The translations under genes and the position numbers were made by a program. The notes below the pieces were generated by a model. The model worked only from the letters and a program-made list of their open reading frames with translations, was not told the DNA's origin and searched no databases. Below are positions 1 to 20,197 of a DNA stretch of 64,000 bases, one piece after another (positions within the stretch are counted from its first letter, which is position 1; the number at the start of each line of letters is the position of its first letter). Source of the stretch: Asanoa ferruginea (GTDB taxonomy: Bacteria; Actinomycetota; Actinomycetes; Mycobacteriales; Micromonosporaceae); the NCBI RefSeq assembly GCF_003387075.1, contig NZ_QUMQ01000001.1, forward strand, positions 5,332,001-5,396,000, written 5' to 3'.

Positions 1-512
1 AGGCCAAGCAGTTGCTCCAGGAAGCCGGCGTGCAGGTGCCCTACACCATCAACATGCTGGCCTCGAACACTCCCGACACGCTGCGGCTCGCCCAGGCGCT
101 TCAGTCGATGGTCAAGGACGGCGGCTTCGACATCAAGATCAGCCCGGTCGAATACTCCTCGCTGCTCGACGAGCAGGACCGGGGCAACTTCGAGATCCTC
201 CAGTTGGGTTGGAGCGGTCGCATCGACCCCGACGCCAACATCACGAACTTCGTGGGTACGGGCGGCAGCCAGAACGTCGGCGGCAGCAGCAACCCGGAGC
301 TGGACGCCGTGCTCGACAAGGCCCGCCAGTCGACCGACCTCAACGAGCGCAAGCAGCTCTACGGACAGGCGGTCGGCCTGCTCCAGGACCAGAACCCGCT
401 CATCTACCTCTACCGGCAGGCCAACCTGACCGCCTTTTCCAACAAGGTCAAGGGCGTCCAGGTGTATCCCGACGGCGTCATCCGCGCGGCCTTCGCCGGA
501 TTCGCCAAGTAG
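1..512 (+). CDS. ABC transporter peptide-binding protein, C-terminal part (5'-truncated by window edge)
   Basis: The reading frame is open from base 3 and stops at 510-512, so only the last 169 or so residues of an extracytoplasmic solute-binding protein (SBP_bac_5, DppA/OppA type) are seen. The tail is typical of the family: a LGWSGRIDPDAN stretch, a VGTGGSQN loop, and a final part with YLYRQANLTAF and a VYPDGVI strand. It would capture peptides outside the membrane and deliver them to the two permeases that follow 6 bp downstream. The start, signal peptide and lipobox lie outside the window. The family assignment is secure; the ligand cannot be told from this fragment. Confidence 0.88.
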   Translation, partial: AKQLLQEAGVQVPYTINMLASNTPDTLRLAQALQSMVKDGGFDIKISPVEYSSLLDEQDRGNFEILQLGWSGRIDPDANITNFVGTGGSQNVGGSSNPELDAVLDKARQSTDLNERKQLYGQAVGLLQDQNPLIYLYRQANLTAFSNKVKGVQVYPDGVIRAAFAGFAK

Positions 513-518
513 GTTCCC

Positions 519-1475
519 GTGGCCCGGTACCTACTGACCCGCGCGTGGCACTCGGCGCTGACCCTGGTGTTGGCGACGGTGGTGGTCTTCCTCGGAATCC
601 GTGCGCTTCCGGGTGACCCCGCGCTGTCGCTGGCGGGGGAGGACCGTTCGCCCGAGGCACTGGCGGCGATCCGCACGGAGTACGGACTGGACCGTCCCGT
701 CACGGTCCAGTTCGGACACTACGTGGAACGCGCGATCCAGGGTGACTTCGGCAGCTCGATCCGCACGGGCATCCCGGTGTCCGACATGATCCGCACCGCC
801 CTGCCGGTCACCGTCGAGCTATCCGTGCTGGCCATCCTCATCGCCGCGCTGCTGGGCATCGGTGCCGGGGTGGTCGCGGCCGTGCGCCGGGGCCGCCCGG
901 CCGAGTGGGTGGCCAACGCGCTGGCCCTGATCGGGTTGTCGGTGCCGCATTTCTGGCTCGGCCTGCTCGCCATCCTCTATCTTTCCGTGGCGACCGGCCT
1001 GTTCCCGGCTTCCGGGTTCGTTCCGCTGCTGGAAGACCCGGTGGGCAACCTGCACCACATCATCCTGCCCGCGGTGATCCTCGGCACCGGCCTGGCGGCG
1101 ATCATCATGCGGCAGACCCGGTCGGCGATGCTCGACTCACTCTCGGCCGACTACGTGCGCACGGCGAAGGCCAAGGGCCTGTCGCCGCGCGCCGTGATCG
1201 GCCGGCACGCGCTGCGCAACAGCCTCATCGTGGTCGTCACGATCGTCGGCCTGCAGCTCGGCGGCCTCATCTCCGGCGCGGTTGTGACCGAGTCGATCTT
1301 CGGTCTGCCCGGCTTCGGCAAGATGACCATCGACGCGGTGTTCCAGCGGGACTACCCGGTGATCCAGGCGGTCGTCCTGCTGACCGCTACGGCGTACATC
1401 GTGATCAATTTCCTGGTCGACCTGCTCTATTCGGTCATCGACCCGCGCATCCGGGTGGCGGGTGAGGCGGCATGA
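519..1475 (+). CDS. ABC peptide importer permease, DppB/OppB type
   Basis: This is a 318-residue inner-membrane permease of the BPD_transp_1 family. The GTG start at 519 lies 6 bp after the binding-protein stop. The N-terminus has the family's first membrane helix followed by the GIRALPGDPAL stretch seen in DppB proteins. The cytoplasmic EAA coupling loop is visible as DYVRTAKAKGLSPRAVIGRHALRNS, and the C-terminus ends in the usual LVDLLYSVIDPRIR. Its stop overlaps the next permease start by 4 bp (ATGA), so the two halves of the channel are probably translationally coupled. Length is normal for the family. Confidence 0.93.
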   Translation: MARYLLTRAWHSALTLVLATVVVFLGIRALPGDPALSLAGEDRSPEALAAIRTEYGLDRPVTVQFGHYVERAIQGDFGSSIRTGIPVSDMIRTALPVTVELSVLAILIAALLGIGAGVVAAVRRGRPAEWVANALALIGLSVPHFWLGLLAILYLSVATGLFPASGFVPLLEDPVGNLHHIILPAVILGTGLAAIIMRQTRSAMLDSLSADYVRTAKAKGLSPRAVIGRHALRNSLIVVVTIVGLQLGGLISGAVVTESIFGLPGFGKMTIDAVFQRDYPVIQAVVLLTATAYIVINFLVDLLYSVIDPRIRVAGEAA

Positions 1476-2353
1476 CCATCGTGACCGTTCCGATCGTCGA
1501 GAGCCCGGCCGGCCTCACCCGGCGCACGCGCGTGTTCCGGCGGCTGCGGCGCAACCCGCTGGCCATCATCAGCTTCGTGGTGCTCGCGGCCGCGGTGCTG
1601 GTCGCCGTGCTCGCACCATGGATCGCGCCGCACGCGGTGGAGGACACCGACTTCGGCCATCTCTTCGCGTCGCCGGGCACGGCCGGGCACCTGCTCGGCA
1701 CCGACGACCTGGGCCGCGACGTGTTGTCGCGCATCATCTTCGGCATCCGGGCCTCGCTCGAGGTCGGGCTGCTCGCGGTCGTCACCGCCTTGGTCGTCGG
1801 CGTGCCGCTCGGGCTGGCCGCGGGCTATTTCCGGGCCGTCGACGCCGTGATCAGCCGGTTCACCGACCTGCTGCTGGCGTTTCCGTTCCTCATCCTCGCG
1901 GTGGGGCTGGCCGCCATCCGCGGCGCGAGCCTCAGCAATGCGGCCGTGGCGATCGGCATCGCGCAGATCCCCGGGGTGATCCGGGTCATCCGCTCCGACA
2001 CCCTGCGCCTCAAGTCGCTCGACTTCGTCGCCGCGGCGGTGGTCGACGGCGCCAGCGACCTGTGGGTCCTCACCCGACATATCCTGCCCAACGCCACCTC
2101 GGTGATCCTGGTGCAGGCCACGGTGACGCTGCCGGTCGCGATCCTGGGCGAGGCGGTGCTTTCCTTCCTCGGCCTGGGCATCCAGCCGCCCTCGCCCAGC
2201 TTGGGCACGATGCTGGCGACCGCCCAGCAGTTCGCGGCCAAGGCACCGTGGGCGGCGACCTTCCCGGGCGTCGCGATCATGGTGCTGGCGTTGACGTTCA
2301 ACGTGTTCGGCGACGCACTCCGCGACGCCCTCGACCCGAAAGGCGACCGATGA
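1472..2353 (+). CDS. ABC peptide importer permease, DppC/OppC type
   Basis: This 293-residue protein is the second permease half. An N-terminal cytoplasmic segment with the RRLRRNPLAIISF motif precedes the first helix, as in DppC proteins. It also shows the LLGTDDLGRDVLSRIIFG signature and the coupling loop DFVAAAVVDGASDLWVLTRH. It overlaps the upstream permease by 4 bp and the downstream ATPase by 4 bp. With the flanking genes it completes the classical five-gene dipeptide/oligopeptide importer. Confidence 0.93.
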   Translation: MTIVTVPIVESPAGLTRRTRVFRRLRRNPLAIISFVVLAAAVLVAVLAPWIAPHAVEDTDFGHLFASPGTAGHLLGTDDLGRDVLSRIIFGIRASLEVGLLAVVTALVVGVPLGLAAGYFRAVDAVISRFTDLLLAFPFLILAVGLAAIRGASLSNAAVAIGIAQIPGVIRVIRSDTLRLKSLDFVAAAVVDGASDLWVLTRHILPNATSVILVQATVTLPVAILGEAVLSFLGLGIQPPSPSLGTMLATAQQFAAKAPWAATFPGVAIMVLALTFNVFGDALRDALDPKGDR

Positions 2354-3353
2354 CGGCCCCGATCCTTGCGGTCGACGACCTCTCGGTCTCGTTCGTGACG
2401 GAGAGCGGGAACGTCTCCGCGGTCGACCACGTCAGCCTCGAAATGGCCGCCGGCGAGATCGTCGGCGTCGTCGGCGAATCCGGCTGCGGCAAGAGCGTCA
2501 CGGCGATGAGCCTGGCCGGCCTGCTGCCGGGCAGCGCCCGCGTCACCGGCTCGGTCCGGCTGCGCGGCACAGAGCTGATCGGGGCACGGGAGACAGAGCT
2601 TCGACGGGTACGCGGCAAGGAGATCGCCTACATCTTCCAGGAGCCGATGACCTCGCTGAACCCGGTGCTCACCGTCGGCCGCCAGATCGGCGAGGTGCTC
2701 GAGGTGCACGAGCGGCTCTCCCGCAAGCGGGTGCGGGAGCGGGCGGTCGAACTGCTGTCGCTGGTCGGCATCCCGTCCGCCGCGAAGCGGGTCGACAACT
2801 ATCCACACCAGCTATCCGGCGGCATGCGGCAACGCGTGATGATCGCGATGGCGGTGGCCTGCAACCCGACGGTCCTGGTCGCCGACGAACCGACGACCGC
2901 CCTCGACGTCACCGTGCAGGCCGGCATCCTCAAGGTGTTGCGCGACCTGCGCGACCGGCTGGGCACGAGCATCCTGATCATCACCCACGACCTGGGCGTG
3001 ATCGCCGACATCGCCGACCGCGTGGTCGTCATGTATGCCGGCCGCGTCGTAGAGCAGGCCCCGGTCACCGAGCTGTTCGCCCACCCGCACCACCACTACA
3101 CCGACGGGCTGCTCAACGCGTCCCCGATTCCGGGGCGGCACGCCGGCACCGAGCGGTTGCAGGAGATCCCCGGGCTCGTGCCCGTCCTGGCCACCCAGCC
3201 CGACGCCTGCACGTTCGCCGATCGGTGCCCGGCCGCCGACGACACCTGTCGCGCTTCCGCGCCGCCGCTGGAGCGCCTTGGCGGCTCCGATCACCGCGCC
3301 GCGTGCTGGCATCCGGTCCCCTCGGCACGGGCCGCACGGCAGGAGACGATTCG

Positions 3354-3357
<4 letters not shown>
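2350..3357 (+). CDS. ABC peptide importer ATP-binding protein, DppD/OppD type
   Basis: The 335-residue protein starts at the ATG overlapping the DppC-like stop (ATGA); the frame is open much further upstream, but that part is a shadow of the permease gene. Walker A is GESGCGKS at about residues 42-49, the signature is LSGGMRQRV and Walker B is [12 protein letters not shown]. The C-terminal oligopeptide-transporter extension contains the cysteine pattern [14 protein letters not shown], which in this family can bind an iron-sulfur cluster. It powers import together with the next gene. Confidence 0.93.
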
Positions 3358-4330
<973 letters not shown>

Positions 4331-4334
<4 letters not shown>

Positions 4335-6091
4335 CGTTCACCACCAGGCCGACCCTGCAAGGAACATTCGGCATGGTGTCATCTACACATTGGCTCGCCA
4401 GCCAGGCGGCGATGGGAGTTCTCGAGCGGGGCGGCAACGCCTTCGACGGGGCGGTGACCGCGGGCTTCGTTTTGCACGTCGTGGAGCCACACCTCAACGG
4501 GCCGGGCGGCGAGGTGCCCGCCATCGTGGCTACCGCGGCCGACCCCCGCCCGCGCGTGTTGTGCGGCCAGGGCACCGCACCCGCCGGCGCCACCATCGGT
4601 CACTTCCGGTCGCTCGGCATGGAGCTCATCCCCGGCTCCGGCCCGCTGGCCGCCACCGTGCCCGGCGCTGTCGACGCGTGGCTGCTGCTGTTGCGCGACC
4701 ACGGCACCCGGTCGCTGCGGGAAGTGCTGACACCCGCCATCGAGTACGCGACCACCGGGCACCCACTGGTCGCGCGCGCGTGGGAGACCGTCGAGGCGGT
4801 GCGCTCGCTGTTCGAGCAGCACTGGCCGACATCGGCGGAGCTCTGGCTGCGCCAGCGTGGTGGCCTGTTCACCAACCCGGCTTACGGGGACACGTTGGCC
4901 CGGCTGGTGAGCGCCTCGGAAGCGGACGGCCTGGACCGTGAGGGTGGGATCGAGGCGGCTCGGCACGCGTGGCGGGAAGGGTTCGTCGCCGAAGCGATCG
5001 ACCGCTTCTCCCGGCGGCCGTTCCGGGACTCCAGTGGCGAGGCGCACGCCGGCGTGGTGACCGGTGACGACCTGGCCGGCTTTTCCGCTACCTGGGAAGA
5101 GCCGGTCACGCACGAGTGGAACGGCTACACGCTGGCGAAAACCGGCCCGTGGGGTCAGGGACCGGTGCTGTTGCAGACGCTGTCGATCCTCGACGCCCTC
5201 GACGATTCCACTGTGTATGACCCGTCGACGACGCGCGGCATCCACGCCCAGGCCGAGGCGCTCAAGTTGGCGTTCGCCGATCGCGAGGCCTGGTATGGCG
5301 ACGCGGGCGACGTACCCATGAAAGCGTTGCTGTCCCGGGATTACGCGTCGTCGCGGGCGGCCCTGATCGGCGATTCGGCCACTGTGGACCTGCGGCCCGG
5401 CCGACCCAACGGTGCTGAACCGCGCCTTCCCCAGCAGATTTCGGGCGTGTTCGCCGCCGACCCGACCACCGGCGAGCCGACGGTCAAGCCCAACGGCGTG
5501 ACCCGCGGCGACACCTGCCACGTCGACGTCGCCGACCGCTGGGGCAACATGATCTCCGCTACGCCCAGCGGCGGCTGGTTGCAGAGTTCGCCCACCATCC
5601 CCGAGTTGGGCTTCCCGCTCGGCAGCCGGCTCCAGATGTTTTGGCTGGAGGAGGGGCTGCCGTCGTCGCTCGCACCGGGCCGGCGGCCGCGCACGACGCT
5701 CAGCCCGACCATGGTGCACCGCGACGGGCAGCCCGTGCTGGCCTGCGGCACGCCCGGCGGCGACCAGCAGGACCAGTGGCAGTTGCTGTTCCTGCTCCGG
5801 CATCTGGCCGGCGGCCAGTCGTTGCAGGAAGCCATCGACGCGCCGACCTGGCACACGACCAGCTTCCCGTCGTCGTTCTACCCGCGGGAGACCGAGCCCG
5901 GGGTCCTGGTGCTGGAGGACCGCGTGGACGCCTCGGTTTTGAGCGCGCTCGGCGCGCTCGGGCATCGGGTCCGGCTGTCCGGGTCGTGGAGCCTCGGCCG
6001 GATGTGCGCGGTGTCCCGCGACCCCGCGACGGGGCTCCTGGCCGCGGGGGCGAACCCGCGCGGCATGCAGGGCTACGCGGTCGGCCGATAG
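4331..6091 (+). CDS. Gamma-glutamyltransferase (gamma-glutamyltranspeptidase family, Ntn-hydrolase)
   Basis: The 586-residue protein would cleave gamma-glutamyl bonds, for example in glutathione or its conjugates. The start at 4331 overlaps the importer ATPase stop (ATGA). The family cleaves itself before a catalytic threonine; here the residue is Thr395 in GDTCHVDVAD, followed by the expected WGNMISATPSGGW. A large-subunit region with NPAYGDTLARL and a small-subunit GTPGGDQQ motif are also present. No signal peptide or membrane segment is seen, so it probably acts in the cytoplasm on imported peptides. The arrangement recalls bacterial glutathione importers linked to an Ntn-hydrolase. The role of this pairing is inferred from context. 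Confidence 0.9.
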
Positions 6092-6176
6092 CTCCCGTCG
6101 TCTCGTCCGGCGTGGGCCGTAGCCCCGGGGCTGCGGGGCTACGCGGGCGGGCGCTAGCTCTCCGTCGTCTCGTGCG
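6071..6176. repeat. Imperfect direct repeat spanning the convergent ggt-like/gntR junction
   Basis: About 38 bp beginning GGCTACGCGG at 6071 recur at 6137 with a few mismatches and one indel, an offset of about 66 bp. The first copy encodes the last residues and stop of the gamma-glutamyltransferase. The second copy, read on the other strand, encodes the last residues (HETTES) and stop of the GntR regulator. It looks like a small tandem duplication of the enzyme gene's 3' end. Confidence 0.6.
6118..6143. terminator. Hairpin between convergent genes, likely bidirectional terminator
   Basis: A perfect 10-bp stem CGTAGCCCCG / CGGGGCTACG with a 6-nt loop lies between the gamma-glutamyltransferase stop (6091) and the GntR stop (6154). 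There is no U-run, which is common in high-GC actinomycetes. Confidence 0.65.
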
Positions 6177-6819
6177 CGGCCATGGAGGCCGCGCCGAGGT
6201 GGGCGAGCGCGACCGACTCGGCCAACTCGCCATCCCCGGACTCGATGGCGTCGACCAGCTTGATGTGCTCGTGGGCCGAGTGCGGTGCCCGCTCCTTGGC
6301 TGTCATCTGGAAGACCCACTGCACGTGCAGGTAGAGCGCCTTGGCGATGGACGCCAACCAGGGATTCCCGCTGATCTCGAGGATCTGAAGATGCAGGGCG
6401 CTGTTCAACTCGGCGACGCGGCGCAGGTCCTGCTGCTCGGTCGCCAGGAGGGCCTGGCCCAGCAGGGCCCGTAGCGTCGTCACGTCGCCGGGCGTCGCCC
6501 GCTGGGCAGCGAGGCGGGCGGCCAACGGTTCGAGGCGCTCGCGTACGGCGAAGATGTCATCGATCGTCGCACTGCTCGGAGACGCGACGACGGCGCCGCG
6601 GCGAGGCAGGATGACCACGAACCCCTCCGCCTCGGCCACGCGCAGGGCCTCGCGGACGGGGTTGCGGGAAACCCCGAAGTCTTCCGCCAACCGGTCTTCG
6701 GTCAGCCGCTCACCGGGCGGATAGTCGCCGCTGATGATCCCCTTCCGGAGAGCATCGAGCACCTGGTCACGGAGCGGCAGGTGCTGAGCGCCGATCTTGC
6801 CCGGCAGGTCCGTGTCCAC
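6154..6819 (-). CDS. GntR-family transcriptional regulator, FadR/FCD subfamily
   Basis: The winged helix-turn-helix occupies roughly the first 75 residues (LPLRDQVLDALRKGIISGDYP, then RLAEDFGVSRNPVREAL) and is followed by an all-helical FCD ligand-binding domain. The frame is open to a GTG at 6873, but that codon touches an inverted repeat. I prefer the GTG at 6819, which has a GAGAGG ribosome site a few bases upstream and gives 221 residues. The gene faces the importer/gamma-glutamyltransferase operon and may control it, or may control the divergent cysteine-rich peptide operon. Neither link can be shown from sequence alone. Confidence 0.85.
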   Translation of the reverse strand: MDTDLPGKIGAQHLPLRDQVLDALRKGIISGDYPPGERLTEDRLAEDFGVSRNPVREALRVAEAEGFVVILPRRGAVVASPSSATIDDIFAVRERLEPLAARLAAQRATPGDVTTLRALLGQALLATEQQDLRRVAELNSALHLQILEISGNPWLASIAKALYLHVQWVFQMTAKERAPHSAHEHIKLVDAIESGDGELAESVALAHLGAASMAAHETTES

Positions 6820-6849
6820 CCAGCCGCCTCTCACAATGAAGTCTGACGA

Positions 6850-6872
6850 TGATTGTATACGAAGAACAATCA
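6850..6872. promoter_or_regulatory. Inverted repeat TGATTGT-N9-ACAATCA, candidate GntR operator/promoter
   Basis: Two perfect 7-bp arms (6850-6856 and 6866-6872) flank a 9-bp spacer. The minus strand also reads TATACAAT here, a good -10 element for the gntR gene. The site lies in the shared region between gntR and the divergent peptide operon, so binding could affect both. FadR-type regulators often bind short palindromes and control their own genes; that this one does so is inferred. Confidence 0.55.
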
Positions 6873-6958
6873 CCCGTACCGCAGCGCGATCGCAGCGGCT
6901 TCGCAGCGCCCTCCCTCATGGTGATGACCAGCACGTTTCCTACCACCAGGGAGGTCTG

Positions 6959-7207
6959 ATGACGCGAGTCATGAACCGGCTGGGTGACCGGATGCTCGGT
7001 CTACTCATCCAACGCAGCGACGCGGGTGCCTGTGTGCCCGAGATGGGGCAGTCCTGCGGCTGCTTCGGTGACGAGGCCAGGGCCTACTGCATCGGCAACC
7101 AGACGCTCCGGCGCCCGAAGTACATCCAGAAGATCTCGTGCACCGGCGGGTGCTACTGGACCAACACCCTGTGCGGCTACGAGAACATCTATCGCTCCTA
7201 CTGCTGA
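6959..7207 (+). CDS. Cysteine-rich peptide precursor (82 aa, 24-aa leader, 8 Cys) of a probable disulfide-rich secreted peptide
   Basis: I do not recognise a named family. The ATG at 6959 has a strong GGGAGG ribosome site. Residues 1-24 form an amphipathic leader (RLGDRMLGLLIQRSDAGA) that lacks the long hydrophobic core of a Sec signal but ends in an Ala-Gly-Ala cleavage motif. The predicted 58-residue product then begins at Cys25. Cysteines lie at 25, 33, 35, 44, 61, 65, 72 and 82, the last being the C-terminal residue, giving up to four disulfides. The four genes after it encode MauE-like and MauD-like redox proteins, an ABC exporter and a signal peptidase, exactly what such a product would need. 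In methylamine dehydrogenase, MauD and MauE are required for the disulfide-rich small subunit. The extension to this peptide is inference; its activity is unknown. Confidence 0.75.
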   Translation: MTRVMNRLGDRMLGLLIQRSDAGACVPEMGQSCGCFGDEARAYCIGNQTLRRPKYIQKISCTGGCYWTNTLCGYENIYRSYC

Positions 7208-7215
7208 TCTGTCCT

Positions 7216-7246
7216 GGCGGGTGGGCGCCAACGGCGCCTACCCGCC
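7216..7246 (+). terminator. Strong hairpin between the peptide gene and its processing genes, likely attenuator/mRNA stabiliser
   Basis: A 14-bp stem with one G-U wobble and a 3-nt AAC loop (arms about 7216-7229 and 7233-7246) begins 9 bp after the peptide stop. There is no U-tract, and the next gene's ribosome site follows at once. Hairpins here are common in precursor-peptide operons, where they keep the precursor transcript more abundant than the enzyme genes. Confidence 0.65.
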
Positions 7247-7263
7247 GCACCGAAAGGGTGGCC

Positions 7264-7821
7264 GTGGCGTATCTGCTGTTGATGTGTCGAGTCCTGTTGC
7301 TGCTGGTCTTCCTCGCGGCGGCCGTGGGAAAGGGCAGGCCGGGCTCCCTCGACCGATTCGCGCGGTCATTGGGTGAGTACGAATGGATCCCGCCGCGCCT
7401 GCGCCGGTCGATCGCCTACGGTGTCGTCCTGAGCGAAGCCGCGATCGCGCTGCTGCTTCTCCTGCCACGCTGGTGGTGGCTCGGGTTCGCCCTGGCGTTG
7501 CTCCTGACCTCCGCGTTCACCGCCGTCACCGCGGCATCCCTCGTGCGCGGCAAGCGAACGACCTGTCAGTGCTTTGGCACCAGCGGGACCATGCCGCAGG
7601 GTGCACCGCACCTGGTCCGCAATTTCCTCCTCATCGGTGCGGCCGGAGCCGGGATCGCGGGATGGATGACGGCCGCCCCCGGCGGAGTCTCGCCCACCGG
7701 TGCCGTCGTTGCGACAGCCACCGCGGTGATCGGGGCGGTAGCTGTGGTGCGGATGGAGGATCTCGTCTTTCTCGCGGCCCGCGCTCCGCGGGCTCACCAA
7801 CAGATCGGAGGCAGGTCGTGA
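7264..7821 (+). CDS. MauE/DoxX-like redox-associated membrane protein
   Basis: The 185-residue protein starts at GTG 7264 behind an AAAGGG site. It has four hydrophobic segments (about residues 3-22, 50-68, 72-92 and 119-135) and a further C-terminal one near 146-163. The characteristic MauE motif TCQCFG with Cys101 and Cys103 lies between segments, and a further Cys8 is in the first helix. MauE proteins act with MauD in forming disulfides outside the membrane during methylamine dehydrogenase maturation. Here no dehydrogenase genes are present, and the likely client is the upstream eight-cysteine peptide. It overlaps the next gene by 4 bp (GTGA). Confidence 0.85.
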   Translation: MAYLLLMCRVLLLLVFLAAAVGKGRPGSLDRFARSLGEYEWIPPRLRRSIAYGVVLSEAAIALLLLLPRWWWLGFALALLLTSAFTAVTAASLVRGKRTTCQCFGTSGTMPQGAPHLVRNFLLIGAAGAGIAGWMTAAPGGVSPTGAVVATATAVIGAVAVVRMEDLVFLAARAPRAHQQIGGRS

Positions 7822-8378
7822 TTAACACGTTGCTGGCGTGTGTGGTTGTGCTGGCCGCCATCACCATCCTCAACCTGGTGCTCTGCTTCGCCATCATTCG
7901 CAAACTCCGCGATGCCGGCTCCCACGACGGTGCGGAGCTCGACCTACCCGCGACCGGGGCCCAGGTGGGCGACTTCGTCGCTCGTGACATCGACGGCGCG
8001 GCCGTGTCGACGGCGGATCTGGCCGGGCGGTCAACGGTTGTCGGCTTCGTGATGCCCGGCTGTGGTCCCTGCCGAAGCCTCGTCGACGCGGCTCGGGAGG
8101 GACGAATCTCCGCGGGCACCTCGGCGTTGTTCTTCGTGCGCGGAGAAACCCCGGCGACGGACGAGGTCCAGTATCTGGTCGACAATCTGCGGGACACGGC
8201 CCGGGTGGTCCTGATCTCCGGAGAGCTCGACGAGGTCGTTAGCGGTGCGTTCGGCGGAATCGTCGGCTACCCCACGCTGGTGCGGGTGGACGACGGCGTC
8301 GTCACCGCCGCCGGAAGGTCGTTCGACTCGGTGGGCGCGGAGCGGCGCGAGCCGGTCCTGACCGAGTCATTGACGTGA
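7818..8378 (+). CDS. Membrane-anchored thioredoxin-like protein, MauD/TlpA type
   Basis: This 186-residue protein starts at GTG 7818 with a GGAGG site and overlaps the MauE-like stop. An N-terminal transmembrane helix (about residues 4-26) anchors a thioredoxin domain facing outward. The active-site motif is PGCGPCRS (Cys82, Cys85) and the cis-proline motif is GYPTL (Pro152). It would make, break or shuffle disulfides in the exported peptide, with the MauE-like protein as electron partner. The stop overlaps the ABC exporter start by 4 bp. Confidence 0.88.
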   Translation: MINTLLACVVVLAAITILNLVLCFAIIRKLRDAGSHDGAELDLPATGAQVGDFVARDIDGAAVSTADLAGRSTVVGFVMPGCGPCRSLVDAAREGRISAGTSALFFVRGETPATDEVQYLVDNLRDTARVVLISGELDEVVSGAFGGIVGYPTLVRVDDGVVTAAGRSFDSVGAERREPVLTESLT

Positions 8379-10213
8379 GCGGGGGCGACAACCACGTCGC
8401 CGGGCGCCGGCATTCCCAGCTGAGGCTGGCGGTCAAGGCCCTCGGGCTGGGCTGGCGGGCGGCCCGGGCCGAGACCCTGATTCTGCTGGTGCTGACCTGT
8501 GCCGCGGCGGCATTGCCCGGCGCTGCGGCCTGGCTGGGCAAGCTGCTCCTGGACGAGTTGGCGTTGGGTAGTGCGGCGACTATGAGTCGGGTCACGACCC
8601 TGGTGGTGCTGGCCGGCGTGATCGCGGCGATGACCGCGGCGATCGGGCACGTGTCCGGGCTGGTCGAGCTCAGGCAGCGGCACGCCACCAGCATTCGGGT
8701 CACCGACCAGCTTTATCGGCGGGTGAACGCGATTTCCGGACTCCGGCACTTCGAGGATCCGTCCTTTCTGGACCAGCTGCGGCTGGCCGAGCAGGGCGCT
8801 CAGGGTGCTCCCGACGAGGTGGCCGGCTTCGCCCGCGAGACGGTGCGATCTGTGGTTACGCTGGCCTCGTTCGCCGGAGTGCTGATCGTGATCTGGCCGC
8901 CGATGGCACTGCTGCTCATCGTCGTCGCGGTGCCGGCGACCCTGGTGCATCTGCACATCGCCCGGCTCGAGGTGCGGGCGGCGGAGCAGGCTACCGGCCG
9001 CCACCGACGCCGCGCGTTCTTCGCCACCATGCTCACGGACCCGCGAGCGGCTAAAGAGATCCGCCTCTTCGGCCTTGGCCGGGTCTTTCACGACCGCATG
9101 ATCCGCCTACAGCGCAGCGCCGCGGGCCTGGAGTTGCGGGTGGCGGGGCGGACCGCGGTCGCGCAGACGCTTCTCACCACTGTCGGTGCGGCGGTTGTCG
9201 GCCTCGGTGGCCTGGTCGTGGCGCGCGGGGTGCTGTCCGGGCGGTTGACCATCGGCGACGTCGGGCTGTTCGGTGCCGCCGTCGCGGGCGTTCAGGGTGC
9301 GCTGTTCGGCATGGTCTTCAAGACGGGCCAGCTCACCTCGGCACTGTCGCTGTTCAGGTCGTTCGTCACCGTGCTCGAGACCCCGGCGGACCTGCCGAGC
9401 GGCCGGCGCACCGTGCCGCCGCTGCGCATCGGCATCGAGTTCCGCGATGTCTGGTTCCGGTATGGCACCGGTGCCTGGATTCTGAGCGGCGTCAGCCTGG
9501 TCGTCCCGCACGGCACCTCGGTCGGACTGGTGGGTGCCAACGGTGCCGGGAAGAGCACCATGACGAAGCTGCTCTGCCGCTTCTACGATCCCGACCGCGG
9601 GCAGATCCTGTGGGACGGCATCGACATCAGAGAGTTCGACATCGAGCAGCTTCGGAGCCGGATCCAGGCCACGTTCCAGGACTACATGAACTTCGACCTC
9701 ACGGCGAGGGAGAACATCGGGATCGGCGACATCGGCCGGGTCGACGACCGCGCCCGGATCCGGCAGGTCGCCGAGATGGCCCAGATCCACGAGATGATCT
9801 CGGGGCTTCCGCGCCAGTACGACGCCATGCTGAGCCGGGCATTCCTCGACGAGGAGACGCAGGAACGGGGGGTGCTCCTCTCCGGAGGGCAATGGCAACG
9901 CGTCGCGCTCGCCAGATCGCTGATGAGAGAAGACGCCGATCTGCTGATCCTCGACGAGCCCAACTCCGGCCTCGACGTCGTCGCCGAACACAGCATTCAC
10001 CACACGCTGCACCAACACCGGCGCGGCCGGACCAGCCTGCTGGTGTCGCATCGGCTGGCGGCACTCCGTGACGCCGACCTGATCGCGGTGCTGGTGGGCG
10101 GCCGGATCGCGGAGCGGGGGAGTCACGACGTGCTGATGGCGGCCGACGGTGAGTATGCCGGGCTGTTTCGGCTCCAGGCGTCGGGCTATCAGGACGAGCG
10201 GGTCGCCGGATGA
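8375..10213 (+). CDS. ABC exporter, fused permease-ATPase (612 aa), probable peptide exporter
   Basis: This is a type I exporter half-transporter acting as a homodimer. The six-helix membrane domain spans about residues 30-330. The ATPase domain has Walker A GANGAGKST (387-395), a Q-loop in ATFQDYMNFD, signature LLSGGQWQRVAL and Walker B LLILDEPNSGLD. There is no N-terminal C39 peptidase domain, so unlike bacteriocin PCAT exporters it cannot remove the leader itself; that job falls to the next gene. Translational overlap on both sides (GTGA and ATGA) places it firmly in the peptide operon. Confidence 0.88.
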   Translation: MSGGDNHVAGRRHSQLRLAVKALGLGWRAARAETLILLVLTCAAAALPGAAAWLGKLLLDELALGSAATMSRVTTLVVLAGVIAAMTAAIGHVSGLVELRQRHATSIRVTDQLYRRVNAISGLRHFEDPSFLDQLRLAEQGAQGAPDEVAGFARETVRSVVTLASFAGVLIVIWPPMALLLIVVAVPATLVHLHIARLEVRAAEQATGRHRRRAFFATMLTDPRAAKEIRLFGLGRVFHDRMIRLQRSAAGLELRVAGRTAVAQTLLTTVGAAVVGLGGLVVARGVLSGRLTIGDVGLFGAAVAGVQGALFGMVFKTGQLTSALSLFRSFVTVLETPADLPSGRRTVPPLRIGIEFRDVWFRYGTGAWILSGVSLVVPHGTSVGLVGANGAGKSTMTKLLCRFYDPDRGQILWDGIDIREFDIEQLRSRIQATFQDYMNFDLTARENIGIGDIGRVDDRARIRQVAEMAQIHEMISGLPRQYDAMLSRAFLDEETQERGVLLSGGQWQRVALARSLMREDADLLILDEPNSGLDVVAEHSIHHTLHQHRRGRTSLLVSHRLAALRDADLIAVLVGGRIAERGSHDVLMAADGEYAGLFRLQASGYQDERVAG

Positions 10214-10629
10214 CCTATCTCGCGGCCGCCGCACTCCTGCTCGCCGCGGGGGTGGGTGTAGGTGTCGTTCGGCGGCGCTTCCAGCTGATCGTCGTGCGGG
10301 GAAGCAGCATGAGCCCGACCTATCAGGACCGCGACGTCCTGCTGGTGAGGGTCCATCGCCGCCCGCGCCTCGGCGACGTGGTCGTCTTCCGGATGCCGGA
10401 CCAACACAAGGACGACGGCCCGGCGTGGATGGTCAAGCGGGTCGCCGCTGGGCCGGGCGACCGGGTGCCGGCCGACGAACGCCGGATCGTCGCGGAGTCC
10501 ACTGTGGCGGACGGGTGTCTCCTGGTCCGGGGTGACAACCCCGAAAGCCACGACTCCCGGCACTTCGGATACGTGCCGATCGACACCGTGCTCGGGGTGG
10601 TGGTGCGACCGGTCACACCATGGAACTGA
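10210..10629 (+). CDS. S26-family signal peptidase (139 aa), probable leader peptidase of the peptide operon
   Basis: A single N-terminal membrane helix (about residues 3-20) anchors a type I signal-peptidase fold. The nucleophile is Ser33 in GSSMSPTYQDRD, the catalytic lysine is Lys76 in WMVKRVAAGPGD, and the conserved GDNPESHDSRHFGYVP box follows. At 139 residues it is shorter than housekeeping LepB. Its position as the last gene of the operon and the Ala-Gly-Ala site before Cys25 of the precursor make it the likely processing enzyme. Its 3' end overlaps the convergent SARP gene by 17 bp. Confidence 0.87.
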   Translation: MTYLAAAALLLAAGVGVGVVRRRFQLIVVRGSSMSPTYQDRDVLLVRVHRRPRLGDVVVFRMPDQHKDDGPAWMVKRVAAGPGDRVPADERRIVAESTVADGCLLVRGDNPESHDSRHFGYVPIDTVLGVVVRPVTPWN

Positions 10630-13393
10630 GCTTCTCGCGTACGCGTACCGATTCGTCGTTGCCCAACTCGTCGAGGAGGTCCGCGGCCCTCTTCCAGGCA
10701 TCGCGTGCGGCGTCGAGATTTCCCGCCTCGTGGTGGACGTCGCCCAGGCGATCGAGGATCACCGTCTGTCCGTAGCGGTCGCCGAGGGACTGACAGAGAT
10801 CGAGGGCGTGGGCGTAGTGCCGCACCGCCTCGTCGTGCTGGCCGAGATGGTGGTGGGCGTAGCCGAGGCTCTCCGACGCCGAGGCCTCGCCATGCTGGTC
10901 GCCGTTTCGCTGGTGCAGGGCGAGCGCGTCGACCAGGTATCGGCGGGAGCGTTCGTGGTCACCCTGGCGCGCCCAGGACCAGCCGACCGACGCGAGCGAG
11001 TGCGCCTCCTTGTGCGTGTTTCCGATGGCCCGGTATAACGCGAGCGCCTGCTCCGCGTGCTGCGCCGCCTCGGCATAAGCCTGCTGGGTGTCATGCAGCC
11101 AGGACAGGTCCAGGTGGACGTGCGCCTGGCCGGACGGGTCACCCAACTCGTCGAAGCACCGCAGCGACGCGGCCAGCGCCGCTTCGGCCTCGCCCAGGTC
11201 GCCGAGGCGGATGTAGGAGCGGCCCAGCCCGCGATGGCTCTGCGCGAGGCCGGCCAGGTCGCCGATCCGGGTCGCCGACCGCTGCGCGGCCCGCTGCGTG
11301 CGCGCCCAGTCCTGCCAGTGGCCCTGCCAATCGAAGAAGTCGCCCAACGACCACGCCAGCCGCCAGGCGTATTCCTCGATGCCGCCCTGCTCGGCGGCCA
11401 GATCGATCAGCGCGAGCAGCACCCGGTGCTCGTTGTCGAACCACCGCATCGCCTGTTCCCGGCCGGTCACCTGGTCCTGGGTGACGTGGGTGGCCGGCTC
11501 GGGCAGGGTGAGGGGGTCGCGGTGCGGCGCCAACAGGAGCGCGGCGGTGTGTGCGGTGTGCAGATAGTGGTCGAGCATCCGGCGCGACGCGAGCTCCCGT
11601 TCGGCGACCCGCAGGCGGGTGTCCGACAGCTCCCGTGCATAGGCCCGGAGCAGGTCGTGGTGGCCATACCGGCCAGGACCGACCTCGACGACCAGGTGGG
11701 CCCGCGCGAGCTCGTGGAGCATCGCCCTGACCCGCGCCGCCGGCACGCCGGCGAGGCTGGCGGCGGCGTTTTCGGCGATGTCCGGGCCCGGGTGCAGGCC
11801 GAGGAGGGTGAACAGGCCCGCGGCCTGGTCGCTGACCGCGCCCAACGACCAGGAGAAGACCGCCCGCACGTCGGTGCTGGCGTCGCCGCCGTCGAGCTGG
11901 TCGAGGTCGCTCCCGGCCTGGCGCATGTGGTCCGCGAGCCTGTCGAGCGCGGCGGACGGGTGCATCGCCGCTCGGGCCGCCACGATGGCGAGGGCGAGCG
12001 GTAAGCGCGCGCAATGGGTGATGAGGGTGTCGATGGCCGCCGGTTCGGCGGCCACCCGGTCGCTGCCGATGCGCTGTGCCAACAGCTGCCGCGCATCGCC
12101 GTGGCTGAACAGGTCCAACGGCACCGGGTGGGCGCCTTCGACCGCGATCAGGCCGGTCAGCTGGGTCCGGCTGGACACCAGCACGAGGCAACCGGGCGAG
12201 CCCGGCAACAGTGGACGGACCTGCTCGATGTCGCGGGCATTGTCGAGCACCACCAGCACCCGGCGACCGGCCAGCAGGCTGCGGTAGAACCCCACCTGGG
12301 CGGCCAGGTCGACGGGAATGCGATGGGGCGCCACCTCGAACGCGTCGAGGAAACCCCGCAGCGCCTCGGTCGGATGCACGGCCGAGCCGCTCGAATCGAA
12401 CCCGCGAAGATTGACGTAGAGCTGCCCGTCGGGGAAGTGGCCGGCGACGCTGTGCGCCCAGTGCACCGCAAGGGCGGTCTTGCCGACGCCCGGGGTGCCG
12501 GAAATGACCGCGACGGTGACGGCGGCCGATCGGTGGTGGTTGAACAACACGGCGTCGAGGCGCTCGAGCTCCCCGCCGCGCCCGACGAATCCGCCGACCG
12601 CGGCGGGAAGCTGGGCCGGGGTCGGACCCGCGGATGGCGTGGCAGGAGCCGGCCCCAGCACCTCCGGGTCGTCGACGAGCACGAGCTGCCGAAGGCGCTG
12701 GAGCTCGGTGCCGGGGTCCAGGCCGAACTGGTCGGCCAGAACGGCGGCGCCCTCGGCATACACGTGTAGCGCGTCGGCTTTCCTGCCGGCGCGGTGCAGG
12801 GCCACCATCAGCAGGCCCCGGAGCCTCTCGTGCAGCGGGTCCGCGGCGACCAGGCCCGCCAGCTCGGTCACCACGGCCTGTTGGTCGCCGCAGGCCAACC
12901 TGGCGCTCGCCCACTCGGCGAGCGCCGTCCGCCGCAGTTCGGTGAGGCGCGTCGCCTCGCCGCGCACCAGGGCCGAGTCGACACCGTCGAAGGCGGGCCC
13001 ACGCCACAGTGCCAGCGCCGCCTCGAAAAGCGCCGACGCGTCAGCGTGGGCTCCGCGTTCGGCCGCCGCCCGGCCGAGCCGCACCTGGGTCTCGAACTGA
13101 GCCGCGTCGTAGCCGGCGTCGTCGATCCGCAGGAGATAGCCGGTCGAGTGGGTGACCACCACGGCACGGTCGTCGAGAGCCCGGCGAAGCGACGAGACCA
13201 ACGCCTGAATCCGGTTGCGGGCCGACGTGGGTGGGTGTTCGTCCCACAGCCCCTCGATCAGGCGGTCGACCGAGACGACGCGATTGGCATGGGCGGCCAG
13301 ATTGGCCACCAGGCTCTTTTCGAGGCGACCAAGGCTGACCGGGGCACCCGAGCTGACTATCTCGACCGGGCCGAGGACACACACGGCAGGCAC
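10613..13393 (-). CDS. SARP/AfsR-type regulator: DNA-binding, BTAD, NB-ARC ATPase and TPR domains
   Basis: The frame is open far upstream, but I place the start at GTG 13393 behind GGACGGAG, giving 926 residues. Residues 1-90 are the OmpR-like winged helix of SARPs (VCVLGPVEIVSSGAPVSLG). About 96-240 is the bacterial transcriptional activation domain. From about 265 an NB-ARC ATPase follows with Walker A GTPGVGKT near 299-306. The C-terminal third is tetratricopeptide repeats. AfsR-type proteins switch on secondary-metabolite genes. Its neighbours are the cysteine-rich peptide operon on one side and the NRPS further on the other, so it could control either; the target is not determined. Confidence 0.9.
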   Translation of the reverse strand: MPAVCVLGPVEIVSSGAPVSLGRLEKSLVANLAAHANRVVSVDRLIEGLWDEHPPTSARNRIQALVSSLRRALDDRAVVVTHSTGYLLRIDDAGYDAAQFETQVRLGRAAAERGAHADASALFEAALALWRGPAFDGVDSALVRGEATRLTELRRTALAEWASARLACGDQQAVVTELAGLVAADPLHERLRGLLMVALHRAGRKADALHVYAEGAAVLADQFGLDPGTELQRLRQLVLVDDPEVLGPAPATPSAGPTPAQLPAAVGGFVGRGGELERLDAVLFNHHRSAAVTVAVISGTPGVGKTALAVHWAHSVAGHFPDGQLYVNLRGFDSSGSAVHPTEALRGFLDAFEVAPHRIPVDLAAQVGFYRSLLAGRRVLVVLDNARDIEQVRPLLPGSPGCLVLVSSRTQLTGLIAVEGAHPVPLDLFSHGDARQLLAQRIGSDRVAAEPAAIDTLITHCARLPLALAIVAARAAMHPSAALDRLADHMRQAGSDLDQLDGGDASTDVRAVFSWSLGAVSDQAAGLFTLLGLHPGPDIAENAAASLAGVPAARVRAMLHELARAHLVVEVGPGRYGHHDLLRAYARELSDTRLRVAERELASRRMLDHYLHTAHTAALLLAPHRDPLTLPEPATHVTQDQVTGREQAMRWFDNEHRVLLALIDLAAEQGGIEEYAWRLAWSLGDFFDWQGHWQDWARTQRAAQRSATRIGDLAGLAQSHRGLGRSYIRLGDLGEAEAALAASLRCFDELGDPSGQAHVHLDLSWLHDTQQAYAEAAQHAEQALALYRAIGNTHKEAHSLASVGWSWARQGDHERSRRYLVDALALHQRNGDQHGEASASESLGYAHHHLGQHDEAVRHYAHALDLCQSLGDRYGQTVILDRLGDVHHEAGNLDAARDAWKRAADLLDELGNDESVRVREKLSSMV

Positions 13394-13421
13394 GTTGGCT
13401 CCGTCCGATGGTGGGGGAGCG

Positions 13422-14015
13422 TCATGAATACGATTGGACCCACAACTGGTAGTTGTAGCTGTTGTTGCCATCGTGTGGCCGCATCTCGCCCCAGAAGGCG
13501 GGGCACGCGCTGGAGGCCTGCCACGGGCCGAAGAACAGGCCGTGACAGTTGCGGCAGTAGGCCCAGCCCGATTGGCTCTGCGGCAGGGATCCGAAGTAGA
13601 TGGAATAGTCGAAGCTGCCGGTGCCGTCGTGCGTCTGCCTGCCGCCGGGGCAGTGGCCGTCCAATCCATAGCCGAAATACATGCTGCTGCAAAGACGGCA
13701 GTATTTCCAGTTGGATTGGAAGTCCGTACCCGCGTTGGTGTTGAAGAGGAACTTGTAATCCCAACTGCCGGCGGTGTTGTGTTTGGCCACCCGTGAATCC
13801 CCACACTTGCCGACCATCCCGTTGCCCCAGACCATGGTCTTGCACTCGTGGCAGACGCGCCAGCCGCTCTGGTAGCCCCCCGCGAACGCGGGCGTGGCCG
13901 TCAGTGTGCTGGCGCCCAGGAGGGCGGCACCGCCGACTCCGATGACGGCGGCCCTGCGGAGCAGCTCGCGCCGGCTGGTCGTCGTCGGCGTGGTCGTGCG
14001 ATCGTTCGGCTCCAT
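13422..14015 (-). CDS. Tat-exported protein with three CxxC...C...H repeats
   Basis: This 197-residue protein has a GGGGAG ribosome site before its ATG. The N-terminus carries a twin-arginine signal (SRRELLRR, then a hydrophobic stretch) with a likely cleavage after ATPAFA at residue 45. The mature part is three repeats of about 48 residues, each with an aromatic-rich W-x(2-3)-C-x2-C start, a third cysteine and a histidine: C55/C58/C71/H79, C106/C109/C122/H129, C154/C157/C171/H181. The pattern suggests three zinc-ribbon-like sites, and Tat export would suit a protein folded around metal before export; disulfides are an alternative. I do not recognise the family. Confidence 0.8.
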   Translation of the reverse strand: MEPNDRTTTPTTTSRRELLRRAAVIGVGGAALLGASTLTATPAFAGGYQSGWRVCHECKTMVWGNGMVGKCGDSRVAKHNTAGSWDYKFLFNTNAGTDFQSNWKYCRLCSSMYFGYGLDGHCPGGRQTHDGTGSFDYSIYFGSLPQSQSGWAYCRNCHGLFFGPWQASSACPAFWGEMRPHDGNNSYNYQLWVQSYS

Positions 14016-14122
14016 CGTGTTCTCCCCGTTTCCGTGCCCGCGCCGGGCATTCCCATGGTGCGGGGCGGGGAGCCAGACCTGGTTGGCTTTGCGCGCACGG
14101 TTGTTGACCGTCGGCGCACAGC

Positions 14123-15538: not shown

Positions 15539-18500
15539 CTACGGGAGGAAGCCGGTCCGCCGGAAATAGTCGACGTAGGTCTCGAGGAGCCCGGCGTGCG
15601 GCGCCGGACACGTGGCGCCGCTCGGACCGGGCTCGAGGAACACCTCGTGGTCGGGTCCCCAGGCCGTCGCGGCGAAGCTGTCGACCAGCGCGTGTGCTGC
15701 GTTGGCCGGGTCGGCACCGACCAGGTCGGTCCACTTGCGACGGTCGAGGTCGGTGAGCGGATAGCCGGCCCGCCGCACCTGGTCGACGAGCGCCGTGAAC
15801 GTCACCGGCACCGGGTTGGCCTGGTGGTGCGTGCCGCCCGTGCCCAACCGCACCAGGTCGGCGATCGCCCGGGCCGCATGGTCGACCGGGACGAGGTCGA
15901 ACGCCAGGTCGGTGTCGGCCGGCACACCGCCGATTTGGACGCACCCCTTGAGGATCCGCCAGAGGAAGTCGTCACGCTGGCACGCGCCGGTGGTCGCGGC
16001 GCCGCTGACCCGGGCGAGCCGGTGGATGGTCACCGGAATGCCGCGGGACCGGGCCACTTCGCACACGCCCTCGGCGACCCATTTCGACCGCTGGTAGCCG
16101 GTGACCAGCCGGTCCGGCGGTGGCAGCGGTGCGTCGGCCGTCGCCCGGCCGGCGCCGCGGGGGGCGTAGCCGAACACGCCCATCGACGAGAGATGGTGGA
16201 CGACGGCGCCCGTGTCGGCCGCCACCTCGAGGATCCGTCGTGTTCCGCCGACGTTGGTCGCGGCGAGCTGGTGGTAGGGCCGGAGGAAATGCACGTCGGC
16301 CGCCGCGTGCACGATCGTGTCGATCCGCTCGGGCAACCCGGTCGGCGCGCTGTCCACGGCCAGGTCGGCGATGCGCACGTCGACGTTGCCGGTCGGCTCG
16401 GCCAGGCCGTACCCCCGCAGGTTCTTCCTGATCCGGTCGAGTCCGTCGGTCGAGCGCACGACGCAGGTGACCCGCACCGCGGGGTCCGCGGCCAGCTCGT
16501 GGAGCAGGAAGGCGCCGAGGAAACCGGTCGCACCCGTCAACAGAACGTGCCGGGGCGACCGGCGGCGCGGCACCACCTCGGGCGCCAGGCTGACCTCGGC
16601 CACCAGGTCGACCGGCTCCTGCGGCGCGGCGAATCCGTCGAGTCGCGCGGCGAGACGGGCCGCGGTCGGTGCGGCGAACAGGTCGGCGACGGTCAACACC
16701 AACCCGGCGTCGCGCGCGGCGCTGATCAGGCCGACCGCGCGCAGGCTGTCGCCTCCGGCGGCGAAGTAGTCGTCGTCGGAACCGATGTCGCGGCCGAGGC
16801 TGGCCCCGAAGAGCGCGCAGAGCTGCCGCTCCCGGACCGTTTCCGGCCGGCGGGACGTCGGCTCGGCGGTCAGGGCGGGCGCGGGCAGGGCTCCACGGTC
16901 GACCTTGCCGTTGGCGGTGAGCGGCAACGCGTCCAGCACCGTCACACTGGCCGGCACCATGTAGTCGGGCAGCCGCCGCCCGGCCGCCGCCCGCAACACT
17001 CCGATGTCGACGGTTCGGCCGGGAGCCGCCGTGACATAGGCGGCAAGCGTGGCCTCGGTGTCGTCCCGCCGGGCCACCACGACCGCGCTGCCGACCTCGG
17101 CCGCCGCGGCGAGAACGGCCTCGATCTCGCCGAGCTCGATCCGGAACCCACGGATCTTCACCTGGTGGTCGGTGCGGCCGAGGAACTCGAGCGCGCCGCC
17201 GGCGGTGCGGCGCACCAGGTCTCCGGTGCGGTAGAGCCGCCCCTGGTCGGCGAACGGATCCTGCCGGAACCGGTCGGCGGTCAGCGTGGGCCGGTCGAGG
17301 TAGCCGTCGGCGACCCCGTCGCCGCCGATGCACAGCTCACCGGGCACCCCGACAGGCAGCGGCCGCAACTGGTCGTCGAGCACGTAGAGGCGGGTGTTGG
17401 CCACCGGTTGGCCGAGGGTGATGGGCGCTCCGGCGACGACGCGGCTCACCGTCGACCAGACCGTCGTCTCGGTCGGGCCGTAGAGGTTCCAGACGGCCTC
17501 GGCGCGGATGCGGAGCCCGTCGGCGAGGTCGCGGGTCAACGCTTCACCGCCGCACCACGCGCGCAGGCCGGGCGAGCCGCCCCAGCCCGCCGCGATGAGC
17601 ATCTTCCAGGTGACCGGCGTGGCCTGGAGCACGGTCGGCCGCTCCCGCCCGATCAGCTCGCACAAGGCGTGCCCGTCCCGTGCCGTGTCGGCGTCGGCGA
17701 GGTGCACAGCGCCGCCGACCAGCAACGGCCCGAACAGCTCCAGGACGGCGATGTCGAAACAGACCGTCGTGACGGCGAGCATCCGATCGCCGGCGGTCAG
17801 CCCGGGTTCGCGGACCATCGAGGAGAGGAAGTTGGTCAGCGCGCGGTGGCCGATCTGCACACCCTTGGGCCGGCCGGTGGACCCGGAGGTGTAGATGACA
17901 TAGGCCCGGTCGTCCGGGTCGGCGGCATCCGGGTGATCCTTGGCGGGGGCCGGGCCGAGCTGGCCCAGGTGCAGGATCGCCGGTGCGGCGGCGGCCACGC
18001 GGGGATCGGGCGCGCTGTCCGCGACGAGCAGCCGCACCCGCGCGTCGTCGAGCATCGTCGCGATGCGCTCGGGCGGGTAGACCGGGTCGAGCGGCACGTA
18101 GGCCGCGCCGGTTCGCAGCACCGCCAGCAGCGTGGCCACCAGGTCCGGCGTGCGTCCGACCGAGACACCGACGAGGTCACCCGGGCCGACGCCGTGCGCC
18201 GCGATGTGGGCGGCGAGTTCGTGGGTCCGCGCGTGTAGTTGCCGGTAGGTCAACTGCTGTCCGGCCGAGGTGACGGCCGGCACGTCGGGTGTGCGGTCGA
18301 CCTGGTCGGCGATGAGCTGGTGGATACAGCGGTCACGCGGATAGTCGACCGGCGCGACGGTGGGGGCAGCGGTCAGCAGGGGCGTGGTGTCCGGCGCCCC
18401 GCCACCGGCGAGCCCAGACCGGAACATGGCGAACGCGTCGACCAGCGCGCGGGCCTCGGTCGCGGCAGCGACGCTGTCGGCCACCCACCAGCGGCACGAT

Positions 18501-20098: not shown

Positions 20099-20134
20099 TG
20101 ATCTTGCGCCTTCCCCCGTTTGACCTGCGAAAAC

Positions 20135-20163
20135 ATAATGATCATGGGGTACGGGTGGAGCAA
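20135..20163 (-). promoter_or_regulatory. Candidate promoter of the NRPS gene
   Basis: On the minus strand a TTGCTC -35 and a CATTAT -10 are separated by 17 bp, about 35 bp upstream of the ATG, in a locally AT-rich patch. The matches are modest (3/6 and 4/6). Confidence 0.35.
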
Positions 20164-20197
20164 GTTCGCACAACCTTTAGCCGCGTGTCGCCCCTGC

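Follow-up and report, generated by a model that had tools for sequence, protein, structure and literature searches.

A family of leader-bearing, cysteine-rich peptides encoded beside MauE, thioredoxin-like, ABC exporter and S26 peptidase genes in actinobacteria: putative precursors of disulfide-bonded products

Described systems and the Asanoa ferruginea locus

Disulfide peptides encoded in dedicated gene clusters are an established kind of bacterial product. Glycocins such as sublancin have an ABC exporter for a disulfide peptide, and cinnamycin-type lantibiotics carry an A-x-A cleavage site on a leader that is not a Sec signal. Oxidoreductases are also encoded in glycocin clusters (PMC9266682). 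We describe here a locus in a 64,000-nucleotide stretch of the Asanoa ferruginea genome (the window; contig NZ_QUMQ01000001.1, positions 5,332,001 to 5,396,000) at which the gene of a small cysteine-rich peptide precedes genes for a MauE protein, a thioredoxin-like protein, an ABC exporter and an S26 peptidase. Its nearest tested relatives in kind are the class I lasso peptide pairs HumE/HumF, AboE/AboF, SviE/SviF and MslE/MslF. There, too, exporter genes and the gene of a disulfide peptide (a presumed one here) accompany the genes for a small membrane protein and for a partner of thioredoxin or DsbA type (PMC7168211, PMC6409603, PMC9266682). The lasso clusters differ in having a lasso precursor, in their membrane partner (DoxX family instead of MauE, PF07291) and in their leader protease (B2 instead of S26). 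Inspection by eye of window positions 1-14000 and of the 22 largest clusters of neighbouring genes (94 loci, open reading frames (ORFs) of at least 100 amino acids) recognized no lasso B1/B2 or cyclase genes; no profile search was run for them.

Other comparisons are partial. The locus resembles the methylamine dehydrogenase system in that a MauE Pfam member adjoins a thioredoxin-fold partner and differs in that the presumed substrate is a short peptide; Me-amine-dh_L gave no match in the same genome, in a search whose control also failed to respond. It differs from glycocin clusters in its exporter, whose Pfam matches include no peptidase (C39) domain, and in the rarity of glycosyltransferase-like neighbours (a cluster present at only 4 of the 94 loci, by eye). 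It is like the cinnamycin type in having A-x-A on a non-Sec leader; no lanthionine-type enzyme was recognized by eye among the same 22 clusters. The decRiPPter survey (Kloosterman 2020, PMC7794033) proposed in Streptomyces three uncharacterized candidate families of ribosomally synthesized and post-translationally modified peptides (RiPPs) with mauE, one of them also with mauD, whose precursors have at least 8 cysteines, and its authors suggested a role in precursor modification. The combination of genes, for which an earlier note on this DNA had recognized no named family, was partly anticipated by this survey, even though the available text describes no shared leader, S26 gene or topology for those families. 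As far as that text goes, our additions are a leader shared across the family, the association with S26 and ABC genes and with a regulator, the distribution over five families, the test in the reciprocal direction and a predicted topology. We found no other description of the peptide family in the open-licence literature, outside which most subscription papers lie, and a search for four peptide motifs as text returned none. A categorically new mechanism within this known kind is possible.

The features of the locus are as follows (coordinates in the window, strand, description).

6959..7207, +, putative precursor peptide gene: 82 amino acids, 8 cysteines; family membership by profile
6959-7030, +, leader part of the precursor: 24 amino acids, AGA at its end
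7031-7204, +, core part of the precursor: 58 amino acids, first residue Cys25
7215..7247, +, stem-loop between the precursor and the candidate maturation genes: 15-bp stem without interruption
7264..7821, +, MauE membrane protein: GTG start at 7264; PF07291 member with 96.6 bits, above the Pfam cut-off of 27; five transmembrane (TM) helices
7564-7578, +, CQCFG of MauE, in a loop rich in lysine and arginine (K/R) between TM3 and TM4
7818..8378, +, membrane-anchored thioredoxin of TlpA/MauD-like type: CGPC at 8061-8072
8375..10213, +, ABC exporter: a single chain with both the membrane and the ATPase part
10210..10629, +, S26-type putative leader peptidase: TIGR02227, 72.4 bits against a cut-off of 47
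10613..13804, -, AfsR/SARP-type regulator: Trans_reg_C, BTAD, NB-ARC and TPR domains; convergent with the operon

The earlier note had this layout right, both for the 82-residue, eight-cysteine peptide with AGA before Cys25 and for the hairpin and four coupled genes behind it. We read the locus as a RiPP-like dedicated cassette that would yield a secreted, disulfide-stabilized mini-protein, and assign this reading, for the cassette as a whole, a probability of about 0.7. It draws on gene order, the families of the parts, conservation of the leader and divergence of the core, mostly even cysteine numbers and co-occurrence of the genes across genomes.

The precursor family and its partner genes

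By profile comparison the peptide is a member of a large actinobacterial family that has no name in Pfam or NCBIfam. NCBIfam models matched 0 of 29 members and Pfam only one, weakly (BmKX, E 0.0054); no sequence relatives were found in the PDB (best E 1), and 13 pattern matches in viral contigs included no confirmed relative. A peptide-only profile built from nine relatives has matches in 105 of 354 Micromonosporaceae genomes (26 of 44 genera, up to 15 per genome) at E ≤ 0.01, a lower bound, since scoring covered the 17 best of some 60-260 candidates in each genome, and one that includes weak matches, not all of them inspected. In a class sample of 394 genomes a 29-row profile matched 15 at E ≤ 1e-4, A. 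ferruginea included, and in a phylum sample it matched 1 of 198, which was again A. ferruginea. When named genomes were scanned for the closer subfamily of the window peptide, 39 loci emerged, at least 14 of which repeat places in the locus sets described below, in genera that include Micromonospora, Paractinoplanes, Catellatospora, Hamadaea, Phytomonospora, Streptomyces, Embleya, Amycolatopsis, Lentzea, Kibdelosporangium, Actinosynnema, Nonomuraea and Actinomadura; the five whose taxonomy was checked fall into five families. Among the smallest cores seen are one from Lentzea (29 residues, 6 cysteines) and one from Amycolatopsis kentuckyensis (21 residues, 4 cysteines).

The partner genes travel with the peptide, and many soil actinobacteria carry such a set. 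Loci chosen by the peptide alone from Micromonosporaceae (46 loci in 30 genomes; high-ranking profile hits and hence a non-random set, several near-duplicates not having been fetched) hold a MauD-like gene in 36 cases, an ABC gene in 33, an S26 gene in 34 and MauE in 21, and 32 of the loci have three or more of these partners. The corresponding numbers for 20 loci from 14 genomes of two other families are 19, 17, 20 and 19, with all four partners at 17 loci and at least three at 19. Absence of such peptides beside these genes in relatives, which the earlier note had named as fatal to its proposal, is not what was found. MauE, which the note counts among the partners, is not a constant one: it occurs at 21/46 loci of the Micromonosporaceae and at 19/20 of the two other families. 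The 39 named loci have MauD-like genes in 37 cases, ABC and S26 genes in 36 each and MauE in 28. Viewed by genome, the MauD subfamily is present in 101 of 105 peptide-positive and in 42 of 249 peptide-negative genomes (Fisher P = 1.7e-48). The reciprocal, MauD-first test examined loci in 19 of these 42 MauD-only genomes: 16 of the 19 contain a leader-bearing, cysteine-rich ORF overlooked in the initial search, and 17 have all four partners. Recurrence of leader and cysteine frame beside the same partners in relatives makes the association more than chance, and the peptide-first and MauD-first loci together uphold the earlier proposal that short cysteine-rich peptides form a distinct family equipped with dedicated genes for redox chemistry, export and proteolysis.

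Active-site motifs are retained throughout (window included): CxxC in 56/56 MauD-like proteins, CxCF in 41/41 MauE proteins, and the SM and KR boxes in 55/55 S26 proteins. Two loci, L181 6579-7952 (-) and L182 5654-7027 (+), encode MauE and MauD-like domains in one frame of 458 amino acids; an ABC exporter adjoins, and neither S26 nor a recognizable peptide is present. Such a natural fusion would fit a direct relay between the two domains. The window thioredoxin, labelled 'MauD/TlpA-like' in the earlier note, has a CGPC motif and only weak Redoxin, ResA and TlpA profile matches, and 'MauD' is a loose term for it: the NCBIfam MauD model TIGR02661 does not match it at E ≤ 1 and matches only 4 of 24 aligned relatives at E ≤ 1e-3 (best 2.5e-5, cut-off not shown). 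The window MauE is the single MauE match at E ≤ 1e-3 in its 9.07-Mb genome. Its AlphaFold2 (AF2) model (predicted local distance difference test (pLDDT) 93.9) has five TM helices, and its best PDB matches are vitamin K gamma-carboxylases at E ≥ 0.45 (probability 0.85 for the top one, not significant), a hint that a quinone-binding bundle is possible. The AF2 model of the peptide (pLDDT 71, predicted TM-score 0.47) has a helical leader and a beta-rich core, and Foldseek found nothing for it in the PDB at E ≤ 0.001. In the S26 protein, whose TIGR02227 membership is supported by a score above the cut-off and by both the Ser and the Lys box, we take Ser33 (codon at 10306-10308) and the lysine of the MVKRV box to be catalytic, as is usual for the family.

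Precursor sequences were compared in a set of 103 peptides (51 leader-pattern ORFs and 52 picked by eye), near-identical members being omitted (e.g. that of L121 and those of about half of the named loci). The number of cysteines is even in 98 of them and in 53 of 57 clusters formed at 50% identity (binomial P = 3e-12, ignoring shared ancestry), and cysteine spacing is highly variable. A strict even-cysteine rule, seen in 51/51 peptides at first, did not survive wider sampling, in which five peptides with odd numbers appeared. The leader pattern '(G/A)DRLL...A-x-A' is conserved and weakly hydrophobic, and all but three of the 103 peptides (100) have an A-x-A between residues 13 and 34. For 56 divergent representatives, identity was 0.393 in the leader versus 0.212 after shuffling, and 0.236 versus 0.217 in the core without its cysteines; the conserved leader and variable core expected of a RiPP precursor are therefore present, in a sampling biased towards the leader, and the modification and leader-removal genes at the locus are candidate enzymes. 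The best leader 9-mer has a mean hydropathy of 1.29 and reaches 2.5 in 2 of 103 peptides, compared with 2.74-3.12 in four Sec-like signals chosen by eye from the loci, so that, judged by hydrophobicity, the leader would make a poor Sec signal. From their sequences the peptides look like precursors of disulfide-bonded RiPPs.

Membrane sidedness and alternative readings

The distribution of positive charges was used to predict on which side of the membrane each accessory protein would act. MauD-like proteins, taken from their shortest plausible start (the start codon nearest the domain), have one N-terminal TM segment with no K/R before it and a mean of 3.6 K/R in the 15 residues after it (55/55). 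In 18 aligned MauE proteins the K/R content per protein is 5.7 in loop 1-2 and 5.5 in the CxCFG loop 3-4, and both remaining loops have 0.17 each. No hydrophobic 19-mer precedes the catalytic serine in 13 of 55 S26 proteins, Micromonospora members included (the one from L059 is borderline, 1.35), and in 37 of the 42 with a TM segment K/R residues lie mainly after it. A nearest-start count gave more charges on the N- than on the C-terminal side in 12 of 53 S26 proteins, mostly ones without an N-terminal TM segment; domain calls longer than 200 amino acids were omitted from this count and from that of the MauD-like proteins, which reduced S26 from 55 to 53 and MauD-like proteins from 56 to 55. 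By eye, two signal peptidases with a housekeeping role, encoded in the same genome, show the opposite bias to the cassette S26. Under the positive-inside rule these charges predict that the thioredoxin domain, the MauE CxCFG loop and the S26 site all face the cytoplasm, which suggests that the peptide is oxidized and cut at the inner face before ABC export, and not oxidized outside. The order that the earlier note's analogy with MauD/MauE would imply, with export ahead of an oxidation outside the cell, is doubtful for this reason.

That order corresponds to a reading in which the reduced peptide is exported first and both leader removal and oxidation take place on the outer face, as is assumed for MauD/MauE. 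S26 signal-peptidase-type enzymes are normally active outside, the window protein scores as one against TIGR02227, and A-x-A is a signal-peptidase motif. With the charges of all three proteins pointing inward, part of the S26 set devoid of a hydrophobic 19-mer, the housekeeping enzymes reversed and the leaders poor Sec signals, we nevertheless hold this geometry to be rather doubtful. A cytoplasm-facing thioredoxin domain would also be at home in a reductase, and it is conceivable that the bonds form independently of the MauE/thioredoxin pair, which would then proof-read them as an isomerase or reductase or couple export. The lasso knockouts speak for such a role: sviceucin is still formed in an sviF deletion mutant, only in mycelia, and MS-271 is still made without mslE or mslF, at lower yield and with no mercapto intermediates (PMC9266682). 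Because those knockouts did not abolish disulfides, the pair here, by analogy, may serve proof-reading or export. The authors of the humidimycin study, on the other hand, assign the pair a disulfide-making role ahead of export (PMC7168211). Since MauD is retained in nearly all peptide-positive genomes, those of all nine loci with a lone peptide included, since the fused frames of L181 and L182 fit a relay, and since the lasso E/F proteins are set beside the MauE/MauD pair by description, orthology not being shown, we consider it unlikely that the pair has no part in making the bonds. A metallopeptide kept reduced by the redox proteins would agree with small size, with CxC and CC motifs and with the predicted cytoplasmic thioredoxin domain; the adjoining leader, exporter and peptidase genes, the largely even cysteine numbers and the widely varying spacing render it very improbable. 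Enzymatic crosslinking was set aside, as no modifying enzyme was recognized when the 22 largest clusters of neighbouring genes (94 loci) were inspected by eye.

Several observations weigh against the disulfide cassette or against parts of it. The fetched stretch lacks MauE at 25 of the 46 Micromonosporaceae loci, and at nine of them the peptide is an orphan with no partner in the stretch; three of the 19 MauD-first loci have no peptide. Five of 103 peptides have an odd number of cysteines, and A-x-A stands immediately before the first cysteine in only 57. Leader conservation is partly built in, as the profiles draw on the leader, and topology rests on charge counts, to which five of the 42 TM-bearing S26 proteins do not conform (four with unresolved starts, one equal). 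To these are added the lasso mutants just described and the fact that product, disulfides and activity of the family are predictions. The nine orphan loci sit in four genomes, and because all four keep a MauD gene elsewhere, maturation in trans is suggested for these peptides. Examples are L013 7592-8160 (-), L015 7227-7906 (-), L079 and L081, some in tandem; their genomes have 12 or 15 peptide matches, and the cores within a pair differ strongly.

Proposed pathway, neighbouring genes and significance

Returning to the disulfide cassette, we infer the following pathway. The AfsR-type regulator would control the locus, and the leader of ~24 amino acids would probably serve as the address by which maturation proteins and ABC exporter recognize the peptide. 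The CxxC domain would oxidize pairs of core cysteines, the CxCFG loop of MauE would take up the electrons in a relay and MauE would pass them on, probably to quinone. Motif and active-site boxes suggest that the S26 peptidase cuts after A-x-A, and the ABC transporter would export the product. The likely order, oxidation and trimming at the inner membrane face and then export, is the least certain part. In its most novel form, the proposal is of a disulfide system at the cytoplasmic face, where an inward MauE loop recharges an inward thioredoxin that oxidizes the leader-addressed peptide, an inward or soluble S26 enzyme cuts and the ABC protein exports, the whole serving a new class of RiPPs whose cores, dozens in number, look unrelated; this version we put forward tentatively, at less than even odds. 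Because the cores are variable and multi-copy and a regulator is present, the product would likely be a competition or signalling peptide.

A GGGAGG ribosome site, rated good, lies close 5' of the peptide ORF, and the MauD-like, ABC and S26 genes each start 4 bases inside the preceding gene. The stretch 7205-7268 around the stem-loop has a folding energy of -37.3 kcal/mol (z = -2.7), and z was ≤ -2 at 10 of 12 loci folded after the peptide gene, the window among them. The stem-loop could be attenuator-like or stabilize the mRNA, and its recurrence would suit a precursor made in excess over its enzymes.

An AfsR-type regulator gene is found at 30/46 and 11/20 peptide-chosen and at 9/19 MauD-first loci, compared with ~5% expected per locus (from 40 BTAD matches in the A. 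ferruginea genome alone). The next commonest neighbours (ORFs of at least 100 amino acids, labelled by eye) are response-regulator-like (11) and large permease-like (9) among the 94 loci, which include at least two repeats. In the window the 3' end of the regulator gene falls inside the S26 gene, and its true start is probably ~400 bases downstream of the listed one, because the first domain begins at residue 154. Near it, at ~13422-14050 (-), lies a frame with a twin-arginine-like signal and Cys-pair repeats, by eye. Further on, 15539-20173 (-) encodes a 1544-amino-acid protein resembling a nonribosomal peptide synthetase, with formyltransferase, adenylation, carrier and reductase parts by eye. 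On the other side of the cassette are oligopeptide-type ABC uptake genes (by eye) and a gamma-glutamyltranspeptidase (Pfam) at 12-6091 (+), and, between the uptake genes and the peptide gene, a GntR/FCD regulator (Pfam) at 6154-6873 (-), all apparently unrelated to the cassette.

If the proposal is true, a large unnamed actinobacterial class of disulfide-rich mini-proteins is defined by its leader together with the four partners and can be found by profile. It would also make testable the formation of disulfides at the bacterial cytoplasmic face through a MauE/thioredoxin relay, which would be unusual.

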